Shown piece by piece: positions 55,947-63,834 of a stretch of DNA of 64,000 bases. Where the stretch lies: assembly GCA_001798605.1 (NCBI GenBank), contig MGST01000041.1, positions 15,582 through 79,581 on the forward strand, written 5' to 3'. Positions within the stretch are counted from its first letter, which is position 1; every line of letters starts with the position of its first letter. The position numbers and the translations under genes are program-made. This stretch comes from Deltaproteobacteria bacterium RIFOXYA12_FULL_58_15. GTDB taxonomy: Bacteria; Myxococcota; XYA12-FULL-58-9. The notes under the pieces were generated by a model, which saw only the letters and a program-made list of their open reading frames with translations, searched no databases and was not told the origin of the DNA.

Positions 55947-56090
55947 CCACACCACTCCAGATCCATCATCCAATGCTACCCGAATCGCCAGATGGAGATT
56001 TGGGGCCACAATCCCACCTTGCCCGGATCAATCGGATCTGTTAGGTCGGAGCCAATCGTGCTTGAGGCCGCCTGTGGCGGGAGGGAGTTC

Positions 56091-56489
56091 ATGAGTAGTC
56101 GCGATCGTCGGGCAAACGAACGACGGCAGGCAGGGAAAAATGTCTCGGTCGATCGGCGTCAACAGGAACGCCGTCTTGGTGATCGTCGCACCACGGATCG
56201 TGTGCCGCTAGAGCTCTGGATGGAAGAGGTGTCGGGTGACGATGTCTACTTCCGTCGCACAGGCAACGTCTCGCCGGGCGGTGTGTTCTTCGATCGTGCG
56301 ATTCCCCACCCATTGCGTACTGCCGTAACTCTGAAGTTCGCGTTGCCCGGAGACAAAGAGATGGTCGTCGCCCGCGGGCTGGTTGTGAGCGCGGCAGGGG
56401 CAAAGGATGGCCTTGGCATGGGAGTCAAGTTCATCTCCATCGAAGGCGACGGTGCCAAACGAATTAGGTCCTACATTCGCAAGGGCTGA
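56091..56489 (+). CDS. Single-domain PilZ protein
   Basis: The 132-residue protein starts MSSRDRRANERR with GGAG upstream and carries a PilZ domain: RTTDR as RxxxR and NVSPGGVFF as [DN]xSxxG. It is a paralogue of the protein at 19765, with the same Arg/Glu-rich N-terminus. It is a probable c-di-GMP receptor of unknown target. The convergent lipoprotein gene ends 25 bp away. Confidence 0.85.
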   Translation: MSSRDRRANERRQAGKNVSVDRRQQERRLGDRRTTDRVPLELWMEEVSGDDVYFRRTGNVSPGGVFFDRAIPHPLRTAVTLKFALPGDKEMVVARGLVVSAAGAKDGLGMGVKFISIEGDGAKRIRSYIRKG

Positions 56490-59752: not shown

Positions 59753-60496
59753 ATGGTGAGCAATGAACTAAAATTATCCGCCGATTTGCGTGACCTTCCC
59801 TTCGCCATTGCGTTTGGCCAGACCGTGCGAGCCAAAGCAACCGGAGTGCTGGAACTCCACGATTCCATTGGGCTGAACCGGGCATTCTTCCTCGAAGGCA
59901 GACCCCAGGGCGCCACACTCTCGCGGCTTAAAAACCCGATGGGCCGCATTCTCATTGAGCAGGACTTGATCACCGAGCACCAGCTGGATGAGGCGTTGGT
60001 CATTCACAACCAGACCGCCAAGCTGCTCGGCCAGGTGTTGCTCGAGAAAGGTTGGGTCAGCGACTCAGGCCTCAAGCAGGTCATGGAGATCCAATCGCGC
60101 CTCAATTGCCTCAGCCTCTTCGGCATCAAAGAGGGTCGCCTCGAGTTCAACAATGGACTCGTGCATTTGACGGATTTCACCCCGTCGCCCATGTCTTCAC
60201 TGATGACTCTATACGAAGGCGTCCGCGACCATGGCGCGTATGCGGTCACCTATCCACTGCTGGCGCAGCTCGCCTTCAACGCCATTTCACTGTCCGAGAA
60301 CGCCGCGGGATTTTTGGAGCAGCTTCCCCCCGCCGAGCAAATGGCGGCGCGCCTTCTGGAGACATTCCGCTTTACCGGCGATCTGGCACGCAGCGTGCCT
60401 TTGGCCCCAGCCTCGTTGGGGTCGTTGTTGTTTGCACTGAACGAGCTTGGTGGCCTAAACATCGCCCCAGCCATCCAAGTGCCCCGCGGCACATAA
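59753..60496 (+). CDS. DUF4388-type signalling protein
   Basis: The 247-residue protein starts after GGAGA. It opens with LRDLPFAIAFGQTVRAKATGVLELHD, as in DUF4388 domains, and contains LIEQDLITEHQLDEALVIHNQT, a helical motif resembling the GspE N-terminal (MshEN) type seen with this domain. It then has a helical C-terminus. Signalling in association with c-di-GMP is possible but not shown. It converges with the receiver-GGDEF operon. Confidence 0.78.
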   Translation: MVSNELKLSADLRDLPFAIAFGQTVRAKATGVLELHDSIGLNRAFFLEGRPQGATLSRLKNPMGRILIEQDLITEHQLDEALVIHNQTAKLLGQVLLEKGWVSDSGLKQVMEIQSRLNCLSLFGIKEGRLEFNNGLVHLTDFTPSPMSSLMTLYEGVRDHGAYAVTYPLLAQLAFNAISLSENAAGFLEQLPPAEQMAARLLETFRFTGDLARSVPLAPASLGSLLFALNELGGLNIAPAIQVPRGT

Positions 60497-60534: not shown

Positions 60535-61458
60535 TCAATCGGTTTCACTGCCCCACGCTTCGGTTCGTCCGGGTCCCCGCGCCTTGGCGCGATCGAGCGC
60601 GGTCTGGGCCGCATTGAGCAACTCGTCGACGGTTTCGAGATTGCCACCAGGATAGGTCGCCCATCCCGCTGACACGGTCACGCCCCTCGCATGTCCGTGA
60701 AACCCGTGATTGGCCACCGTATCGCAGAGCCGTGCACATACAGCGCGGGCTTGTTCACCGTCGGTGTGTGGTAACAACACCGCGAAGGTGCCGCCACTGA
60801 GCCGCGCCAAGATGTCGTTGGCGCGCAGCAAGCGCCCAGCAAGCTCCGAGACCACGGTAATCAACGCGTCCACCGCGCGATGCCCTACTTCGAGATTGAT
60901 ATTGCGCAACCCATCAATGTCCCAGATGCAAATCACCATGGCCAGTCGATGGCGGCGCGACCTGGCAATCTCCCGTTGGCAGGATTCAATGAACGCGCGG
61001 CGGTTGGGCAACTTCGTCAGCTCATCAATGGAAGCTTGCTCTCGGTGCCTCTCAACCGCGCGTTGTAACTCCCTCTGCAACGACTTCAGGCGCAGCTGCA
61101 CCTGGATGCGAGCCACCAGCTCATCGGGTGAAAAAGGCCGCGTCAAGTAGTCACTGGCACCGACCTCAAATCCCGTGTCGCGGGCACTGTCGTCGGTTTG
61201 TGAGGTCACCAGGATCACTGGCAACACCGCGGCGTCGTGCTTCTGACGAATCGCTCGCAGAAGGCCAATGCCGTCGAGATTTGGCATCACGATGTCAGAG
61301 AGGACAATATCGACCTCTCCAGACATGGCAACTGGAAGAGCCTTGGTGCCATCCTCGGCTTCGATCACCTCTACATCGAGATCAGCTTCTTCGATGATCT
61401 TTCGCATCGCAGTCCGCAGACTGGCGCTGTCATCAACAACGAGAACAGTAGCAGTCAC
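60535..61458 (-). CDS. Response regulator with degenerate GGDEF domain
   Basis: The GTG start overlaps the stop of the upstream gene by 4 bp (GTGA). The 307-residue protein has a receiver domain (VVDDSASLRTAMRKI; phospho-Asp in IVLSDIVMPNLDG; Lys in YLTRPFSPDEL is Arg at the usual Lys neighbour). A GGDEF domain (residues about 140-300) has the active-site motif changed to SGGTF. The inhibitory I-site RxxD (RAND) is kept five residues upstream. It should therefore not make c-di-GMP but may bind it, as known for other degenerate GGDEF receptors. The coupled upstream gene encodes an intact diguanylate cyclase. Confidence 0.85.
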   Translation of the reverse strand: MTATVLVVDDSASLRTAMRKIIEEADLDVEVIEAEDGTKALPVAMSGEVDIVLSDIVMPNLDGIGLLRAIRQKHDAAVLPVILVTSQTDDSARDTGFEVGASDYLTRPFSPDELVARIQVQLRLKSLQRELQRAVERHREQASIDELTKLPNRRAFIESCQREIARSRRHRLAMVICIWDIDGLRNINLEVGHRAVDALITVVSELAGRLLRANDILARLSGGTFAVLLPHTDGEQARAVCARLCDTVANHGFHGHARGVTVSAGWATYPGGNLETVDELLNAAQTALDRAKARGPGRTEAWGSETD

Positions 61459-62432
61459 CGGTGATCTCCCGCCGCATCGGGGTTGTAGAGATAATTGACA
61501 TGTTGGTACAGACAGATGCGGTTTCGGCCCTCTCGCTTGGCCTGAGCGACCGCTTGATCGGCGTTGGCGAGCAGCTGCTCGACACTTGTTACGTTCTTCG
61601 AGGGAAAAAATGCGACCCCTACAGAAACCGTCAGCTTTGATGCGTTCTTGCCCTCCCTGAAGTCTCTCTGCGCAACAGAGCGCCACACACGTTCTGCCAC
61701 CGGCAGGCAACCAGAGAAATGTGTCTGAGGCAGGATCACCAGAAACTCTTCGCCACCATAACGTGCGACAGAGTCCGTTTCGCGAACCGCTCCGGAGATC
61801 AACTTGGCCAACTCAGTGAGAACAAGATCCCCAAAGAGCTGACCGTGGTTGTCATTGATGACTTTGAAGTGATCGATATCCACCAAGAGGATAGACAGTG
61901 GGTCATTGTAGCGCTGCGCCCGCAGAAATTCGTCCTTGAGCCGCTGATGCATGGCCCGGTGATTGCAGAGCCCCGTGAGATCGTCGGTAACACTGAGCGC
62001 CTCGAGTTGCTTGCGCTTGCTGTTGACCTTGTCCTGCAACGACTTGATGCGCAGCATCGATGCGACCCGAGCTCGCAGCTCCAACGGATTGTATGGTTTT
62101 GCGAGATAGTCGTCGGCACCGAGTTTGAGCCCGGTGACCTTCGAGCCGATGTCATCTTTCACCGAAACTAGAATGATTGGAATGAAGTTATCGTCGGCGA
62201 AGGATTTGACGATGCGACACACCTCCAACCCATTCATCTTCGGCATCATCACATCGAGGATAAGAAGGTCGGGGGGAGCTGCTCGGATCTTTTCAACCGC
62301 CTCGACGCCGTCGTTGGCAGTCTCGATCACGAACCCGAGGCCCTCGAGGGTCTCCTTCACGAGATTCCGCATCGACCGATCGTCGTCGACCACCAGAATC
62401 TTGGGTTGGCCTTCCATCTCTCCGCCGTCCAT
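61455..62432 (-). CDS. Response regulator diguanylate cyclase
   Basis: The product of about 325 residues has a receiver domain (ILVVDDDRSMRNLVKETL; phospho-Asp in LLILDVMMPKMNG; Lys in YLAKPYNPLEL) and a GGDEF domain with intact GGEEF and I-site RETD five residues upstream. It should make c-di-GMP from GTP, with product inhibition, controlled by phosphorylation of the receiver. Start 62432 (MDGGEMEGQP) or 62417 (MEGQPKILVV) is possible. Upstream sequence contains an 11-bp repeat. No histidine kinase gene is adjacent. Confidence 0.88.
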   Translation of the reverse strand: MDGGEMEGQPKILVVDDDRSMRNLVKETLEGLGFVIETANDGVEAVEKIRAAPPDLLILDVMMPKMNGLEVCRIVKSFADDNFIPIILVSVKDDIGSKVTGLKLGADDYLAKPYNPLELRARVASMLRIKSLQDKVNSKRKQLEALSVTDDLTGLCNHRAMHQRLKDEFLRAQRYNDPLSILLVDIDHFKVINDNHGQLFGDLVLTELAKLISGAVRETDSVARYGGEEFLVILPQTHFSGCLPVAERVWRSVAQRDFREGKNASKLTVSVGVAFFPSKNVTSVEQLLANADQAVAQAKREGRNRICLYQHVNYLYNPDAAGDHR

Positions 62433-62535
62433 TTCCCCCAACGCCCGCCGCGCCCCAACCCCAAACATCCAACACCGAAAGGGAATCATAGCACAGCACA
62501 ACGTCCGCGAAAGGGTCGGCCGGTTCCCATTTCTT

Positions 62536-62601
62536 TCTGTTCCATTGCTGTCCCATTTCTGTCCCATTGCTGTCCCATTTCGGTCCCATTTCTGCCCCAT
62601 T
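62536..62601. repeat. 11-bp tandem repeat (tctgtcccatt type)
   Basis: Six units of 11 bp (tctgttccatt, gctgtcccatt, tctgtcccatt, gctgtcccatt, tcggtcccatt, tctgccccatt) run from 62536 to 62601. They lie between the diguanylate cyclase gene and the divergent HTH-TPR gene, upstream of both. They are not a CRISPR. Confidence 0.85.
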
Positions 62602-62697
62602 TCCAGTCCTGGAAAATCCCTTGCCCAGAATCGACAACGTGGTAGTCAACCTGCGATGCGATTTTGCCTCCGGTGAAAACCGTCAGAGGGTCTTGGC

Positions 62698-63834
62698 ATG
62701 GTTGGCTCGATGAAACAGCGCTACACCACTAGCCAGGTGGCACGTCTTCTGAAGCTTCCAGAGCACCGCATCCGTTCGTATGTCCGCTGCGGTATCATCT
62801 CGGGCGGCCCAGACATCGGCGACGAAAAACAGATTCACAAGGCCAGCCCGCAGAAACCGGCCCGTAGCGACGCCAATCAGAAGAACCGCCTGAGCTTCGA
62901 CTTCCGCGACATCCTCGTCCTCAAAACCGTCCGCAAGCTGATGTCAGCCGGTGTGCCCCCGAACCGCGTAAAACAAGTCCTTGCCGCCGTGCGCAAACAG
63001 CTTCCAGCCGAGCGGCCGCTCTCAGCGGTGCGCATCACCCTCAAGGACGGCGTTATCGTCGTCTCCGACGGAGACGTCCATTGGGAGCCAGAGAGCGGCC
63101 AATCACAACTCAGCTTCGCCGCATTCGACAGCCCGGTTCATTCGCAGCCATCCAACCCAGGTTCCAACCCCGGCACCAACCCACCCGTCAATCCAGCTGT
63201 CAACCCAAGCTCCATGGCCTTCGGGATGATGTTGGGCGCGAAAACGGGCTCCATGCCCAACTGGGTGCCCGGTGGCTCTGGCGACGCCCCACCGCACCCA
63301 GTATGGTTCAGGGCAGGAAACCAACCCACCCTCTCCGAGATCATCCATTCGAAAAAGTTGAGCCAGGGGGTCCCGGGCGCTCCAAATGGCACTGTCAAGG
63401 GCGGCACTCTGGCAATCAACAGCGCCGATCGTTGGTTCAACTTCGGCCTCGACCAAGAAGACAGCGACCCCGACGGTGCCTACGAATCATACCTGAGAGC
63501 CTTGGCCCACAACCCCGAACACGTTGAGGCCATGATCAACATCGGCCGGTTGTGCTCCGAGGGAGGCGACGACACCCGCGCCGCCGCCTACTTTCGTCAA
63601 GTCATCCGCGTCACACCCAGCCATCCGGTGGCCCATTTCAATCTCGCAGTCACCATGCACGATCAGAACAACCTCGATGCCGCCCTGGTTTCCTACAAAA
63701 ATGCCCTCATCCAGGACCCCGACTTCGCCGACGCCCATTTCAATCTGGCAAACCTCCTCGAAGAGATCGGCGACCACGAAGGGGCAACTGAGCACATGAA
63801 GGCCTACCACCACACCACCGAAACCCGGCGCTGA
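62698..63834 (+). CDS. MerR-type HTH protein fused to TPR repeats
   Basis: The 378-residue protein starts after GAGGG. It opens with a MerR-like helix-turn-helix (YTTSQVARLLKLPEHRIRSYVRCGII) and a MerR-type second part (FDFRDILVLKTVRKLMSAGV). A Pro/Asn-rich linker (NPGSNPGTNPPVNPAVNPS) leads to a C-terminal TPR region (about 270-375: AYESYLRALAHNPEHVEAM and AHFNLAVTMHDQNNLDAA). This would be a DNA-binding protein that also binds a protein partner. It is divergent from the receiver-GGDEF operon. The remaining 63835-64000 region holds a direct repeat and no gene. Confidence 0.82.
   Translation: MVGSMKQRYTTSQVARLLKLPEHRIRSYVRCGIISGGPDIGDEKQIHKASPQKPARSDANQKNRLSFDFRDILVLKTVRKLMSAGVPPNRVKQVLAAVRKQLPAERPLSAVRITLKDGVIVVSDGDVHWEPESGQSQLSFAAFDSPVHSQPSNPGSNPGTNPPVNPAVNPSSMAFGMMLGAKTGSMPNWVPGGSGDAPPHPVWFRAGNQPTLSEIIHSKKLSQGVPGAPNGTVKGGTLAINSADRWFNFGLDQEDSDPDGAYESYLRALAHNPEHVEAMINIGRLCSEGGDDTRAAAYFRQVIRVTPSHPVAHFNLAVTMHDQNNLDAALVSYKNALIQDPDFADAHFNLANLLEEIGDHEGATEHMKAYHHTTETRR

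Follow-up and report, generated by a model that had tools for sequence, protein, structure and literature searches.

In the window, the whole stretch of 64,000 nucleotides analysed here, two adjacent genes on the minus strand each encode a receiver and a GGDEF domain, the upstream one (P1) with an intact A-site and the downstream one (P2) with a degenerate one, and the question raised by this locus is what a degenerate GGDEF protein does beside an intact one. The reading favoured here, with moderate confidence, is that P1 and P2 form a small operon of a response-regulator cyclase and a response-regulator c-di-GMP receptor. The original prediction had described two receiver-GGDEF genes overlapping by GTGA, the upstream one with GGEEF and RETD intact and the downstream one with SGGTF in which RAND is retained, and its coordinates, frames and motifs were confirmed as follows.

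61455 to 62432, minus strand: P1, predicted receiver-GGDEF diguanylate cyclase with complete A-site and I-site, 325 aa
62064 to 62399, minus strand: P1 receiver domain (REC, residues 12-123), Pfam PF00072, E 3e-29
61518 to 61991, minus strand: P1 GGDEF domain (residues 148-305), Pfam PF00990, E 3e-44
61773 to 61784, minus strand: P1 I-site RETD
61743 to 61757, minus strand: P1 A-site GGEEF
61455 to 61458, minus strand: GTGA overlap of the P1 stop codon TGA and the P2 start codon GTG
60535 to 61458, minus strand: P2, predicted c-di-GMP receptor of receiver-GGDEF type whose A-site is degenerate and I-site intact, 307 aa
61102 to 61446, minus strand: P2 receiver domain (REC, residues 5-119), Pfam PF00072, E 7e-27
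60574 to 61035, minus strand: P2 GGDEF domain (residues 142-295), Pfam PF00990, E 8e-30
60814 to 60825, minus strand: P2 I-site RAND (R212 and D215, equivalents of PleD R359 and D362)
60784 to 60798, minus strand: P2 degenerate A-site SGGTF

The REC and GGDEF Pfam matches of P1 and P2 far exceed the cut-off. P1 starts with ATG at 62432 (an alternative ATG is possible at 62417) and P2 with GTG at 61458, the ribosome-binding-like GGGAG lying 7 nt ahead of the latter. Residues are numbered as in PleD from a phmmer alignment, in which RETD and GGEEF of P1 align with R359-D362 and G368-F372. P1 has the complete A-site set (equivalents of D327, K332, N335, D344, GGEEF, K442 and R446) and the feedback I-site set, that is, RETD together with the R313 and R390 equivalents, and the phospho-acceptor Asp of its receiver is conserved. 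RAND and SGGTF of P2 stand at the same PleD positions, with E370 changed to G and E371 to T; further losses in P2 are K332 to R and R446 to P, and the equivalents of D327, N335, D344 and K442 are retained. P2 has no output domain beyond GGDEF.

The comparison set consisted of eight genomes of the class, which fall into a single order and six families. Homologues were compared, as the original prediction had proposed, and they are indeed paired: P1 and P2 adjoin in the same gene order in five of the eight genomes (G000, which is the present one, G001, G002, G004 and G007; four of the six families), always with an intact P1 upstream and a degenerate P2 downstream. P2 orthologues, 52-58% identical, occur in four of the seven other class genomes, each immediately downstream of an orthologue of P1 (67-73% identical), so that five P2 orthologues are known in all, counting this one, and neither gene has an orthologue in G003, G005 and G006 at the thresholds used. 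The common gene order is an NAD kinase gene (minus), a DUF4388 gene (plus), P2 (minus), P1 (minus) and a MerR/TPR gene (plus), and G007 keeps that order without the DUF4388 gene. Because it is syntenic in five genomes, the P1-P2 pairing is more than chance. Searching GTDB contigs with P2 yielded distant receiver or GGDEF matches only and no orthologous pair. Since the pair and the residue split between its members are both conserved, the observation is genuine and has more behind it than could be known from the sequence alone.

Translational coupling, which had also been proposed, fared less well. The exact GTGA overlap is present here and in G004, that is, in only two of the five loci, whereas the other three have gaps of about 3, 14 and 102 nt between P1 and P2; therefore the pairing is conserved and strict translational coupling, its distance varying among loci, was rejected as a conserved feature. 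Upstream of P1 stands a candidate promoter.

62484 to 62495, minus strand: extended -10-like element TGTGCTATGATT upstream of P1, inferred promoter

In four of the five loci (three of the four orthologous ones) P1 is preceded by the pattern TGTG[CG]TAnnAT[GT]. The divergent gene at 62698-63834 (plus strand), which encodes a MerR-type HTH and C-terminal TPRs and adjoins P1 in all five loci, possibly regulates the operon. Between it and P1, at positions 62534-62603, an 11-bp repeat (TTTCTGTCCCA) is arrayed in about 6.4 copies, and five of the seven genome matches to the repeat pattern fall in this array. The array may have expanded recently or may serve as a set of operators; the repeat is absent from the same region of four relatives and was for that reason set aside as a component of the system.

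What P2 does can be approached through the residues that its clade has kept and lost. At ten catalytic positions (D327, K332, N335, D344, G368-E371, K442 and R446) the P2 clade keeps the residue in 24 of 50 cells, and the equivalents of R313, R359, D362 and R390 are kept in 20 of 20, RxxD being present in all five orthologues; these figures are counts and not p-values, because the sequences within a clade are related. The five A-sites read SGGTF, SGGRF, HGGKF, GPHKF and GGEKF, so the fourth position is never Glu, and the E371, K332 and R446 equivalents are gone from all five proteins. Among GGDEF positions, 40 of 160 are invariant in the P2 clade as against 86 in the P1 clade. From the loss of the A-site and the retention of the I-site, P2 would very probably, indeed almost certainly, be inactive as a cyclase and would probably bind c-di-GMP, the binding site probably being the I-site. 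The D327, N335 and D344 equivalents survive in four or five of the five P2 proteins, and GTP-binding degenerate GGDEF domains are known (PMC10333796), both of which would suit a sensor of substrate whose former A-site takes up GTP or some other nucleotide; such a sensor is very unlikely in view of the uniform loss of K332 and R446, to which G004 adds that of D327 and N335. Nor is it credible, except at the very margin, that P2 is a former cyclase decaying without function: its eroding A-site and its faster evolution than P1, seen in the identities given above, are what decay would produce, but the frames are open at full length and the receiver and I-site are conserved across four families.

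A second clade shows the same split. It is a P1-related clade of family f8, which decayed on its own (A-sites NENQF, KEIEF, AVEQF, EADRF, DERAF and ADDKF), with I-site residues kept in 24 of 24 cells and catalytic residues in 7 of 60, counts that separate more sharply than those of the P2 clade, and to judge from these sequences a likely enzyme has here turned independently into a likely receptor. Retention of the I-site where catalysis is lost may be read as selection for dinucleotide binding. The f8 genes (loci L091, L096, L099, L102, L171 and L173) encode P1-related receiver-GGDEF proteins whose A-sites are fully degenerate, whose I-sites read RxFD and whose C-terminal tail has the form CLYQ, CLFQ or CLLQ; in G030 and G039 an NAD kinase gene lies about 2 kb away.

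The I-site motif has to be weighed against its base rate. In the source assembly (6.37 Mb, 381 contigs, about 93% complete) the motif table gives 30 GGDEF domains, with the A-site intact in 24 and not in 6, and RxxD is present in 27 of the 30, including five of the six with a degenerate A-site. Because RxxD is so common in this genome, it is unremarkable alone beside a degenerate A-site, and it was rejected as stand-alone evidence for a c-di-GMP receptor. The same base rate would suit a P2 whose GGDEF domain is a ligand-free scaffold, only the receiver or the surface being of importance, and a myxobacterial example is TmoK of M. xanthus, a GGDEF protein which neither makes nor binds c-di-GMP (PMC4877007) and which counts against the receptor reading. 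A scaffold is nevertheless improbable, as all four I-site residues stand in every P2 orthologue and in the independent degenerate clade while catalytic residues erode. Elsewhere in this genome, locus L205 (G000:C167:5290-7305) has three tandem GGDEF domains, two in one 477-aa frame and the third in the next gene; both domains of the 477-aa frame have GGEEI, and the first is without RxxD.

The AlphaFold2 model of P2 (mean pLDDT 94.7, pTM 0.79) has as its best PDB matches by Foldseek WspR (3bre), DgcR (6zxb and 6zxm) and PleD (2wb4). Over the whole chain these reach a TM of about 0.5, presumably owing to a different arrangement of the domains; taken by itself, the GGDEF domain fits 3ign, a solved GGDEF-c-di-GMP structure, at 2.2 A with a TMt of 0.90. 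The P2 receiver retains Asp55 and Thr85, and the invariant receiver Lys is Arg in four of the five P2 orthologues (Arg107 in P2), so that switching of this receiver may be unusual.

A tree with several long branches was inferred by a quick search from an alignment stripped of the I-site and A-site motifs. P2 forms one clade on it (SH-aLRT 100), and the degenerate A-sites require at least four changes. P1 and P2, which are about 32% identical, are not sister groups, and a recent tandem duplication of P1 as the origin of P2 was rejected because the two lie in separate parts of the tree. P1 belongs to a phylum-wide family of its own with a C-terminal CLYQ..Y.Y.P-like tail. Outside the class, both members of a tandem pair in G011 are intact, and G192 (L133) has a tandem receiver-GGDEF pair with both A-sites degenerate (SADTF and SGTEL) and RxxD present in both; the first receiver of L133 looks degenerate too. 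P1 relatives outside the class are mostly without P2, as in the f17 and f8 genomes, where in the four inspected they lie 2-7 kb from an NAD kinase gene. In view of the intact-intact pair, the degenerate-degenerate pair and the P1 relatives without P2, a maker-receptor circuit is not an old universal property.

The same results bear on a serious rival, according to which P2 serves mainly to regulate P1, as a built-in brake or titrator rather than as a receptor with separate output, acting through inactive mixed dimers (via receiver or GGDEF) or through c-di-GMP that cross-links both I-sites and holds P1 off. In PleD, R313, R359, D362 and R390 cross-link GGDEF domains, and their equivalents are all retained in P2; operon pairing, the common architecture and the want of a separate output domain point the same way. 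The rival is serious because mixed contacts between GGDEF domains are known from E. coli two-hybrid work, including those made by CdgI, a c-di-GMP-binding protein whose A-site is degenerate and I-site intact, as in P2 (PMC5635695). Unlike P2, CdgI has no receiver and has an N-terminal domain in common with DgcT, and operon pairing is not reported in that paper. Against a brake, the low identity of P1 and P2 and the absence of a recent duplication mean that shared dimer interfaces are not assured, and in the phylum P1 homologues mostly function in the absence of P2; on the whole a brake is rather unlikely.

P1 and P2 are each of a known kind. P1 resembles PleD, WspR, Leptospira DgcR and M. xanthus DmxB, which are receiver and GGDEF cyclases with intact A-site and I-site, and differs from them in its own phylum-wide family, its C-terminal tail and its degenerate neighbour here. 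For P2, the original prediction had pointed to the I-site receptor pattern of PopA of Caulobacter. Catalytic decay with full I-site retention supports this, P2 and PopA both being response regulators whose GGDEF domain has lost the A-site and kept RxxD, and PopA is a c-di-GMP receptor acting by localisation (PMC10333796, PMC3509222). The likeness stops at architecture: PopA is REC-REC-GGDEF, whereas P2 has one receiver and shares its operon with an intact cyclase. The motif pattern of P2 has its closest experimental precedent in SgmT of M. xanthus (GGGVF, intact RHPD, K442 and R446 missing), which binds c-di-GMP via the I-site in vitro without competition by GTP and requires the I-site for clustering (PMC3509222), although it is a GAF-histidine kinase-REC-GGDEF hybrid, unlike P2. 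ActA of M. xanthus, likened here by architecture and motifs and not by orthology, is a stand-alone REC-GGDEF protein with degenerate A-site and intact I-site (PMC3509222); its gene is upstream of actB (PMC4877007) and, unlike that of P2, no adjoining cyclase is mentioned. An operon of intact and degenerate receiver-GGDEF genes was not recognised in the open-access literature as judged by titles and abstract openings, which does not prove its absence.

With P2 as a receptor, P1 would make c-di-GMP under feedback inhibition at its I-site, and P2, making none, would bind the dinucleotide at its own I-site, R212 and D215 acting with R166 and R243; the bound c-di-GMP would then alter the interactions of P2 or its location in the cell, as with PopA and SgmT. 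It is speculative to make P1 the supplier of the c-di-GMP that P2 reads, and P2 might instead answer the general pool in the cell. A closed local P1-P2 circuit is plausible, a reasonable hypothesis and not a result. A stricter form, in which one mRNA yields a dedicated two-gene module whose receptor gates or localises its own producer via I-site cross-linking and so keeps the signal private, can be put forward only tentatively and is doubtful.

The neighbourhood includes other possible readers of c-di-GMP. The convergent gene at 59753-60496 (plus strand), with a DUF4388 domain, matches the NCBIfam MshE-related c-di-GMP-binding motif at 52.5 bits (cut-off 38) and occupies the same place in G001, G002 and G004, while G007 lacks it. 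On visual inspection the MshEN motif seems to have other residues in place of its first Arg and one Gln, which makes c-di-GMP binding by this protein unsure. The PilZ-domain gene at 55992-56489 (plus strand), conserved in G002, G004 and G007, possibly encodes a further reader near the pair. No kinase gene was seen in the annotated part of the window (54.6-63.8 kb). In one f17 genome, genes for a receiver-PAS-histidine kinase and an NtrC-like regulator follow the P1 relative on the same strand, which hints at the type of kinase that might feed P1.

How a single diffusible messenger can keep many signals apart in a cell that has some 30 GGDEF domains is an open question. A conserved operon that joins one producer to one probable receptor of like architecture offers a compact case in which to test local signalling, and the pairs found in nature, which have both members intact, one intact or both degenerate, form a series along which the passage from enzyme to receptor can be traced.
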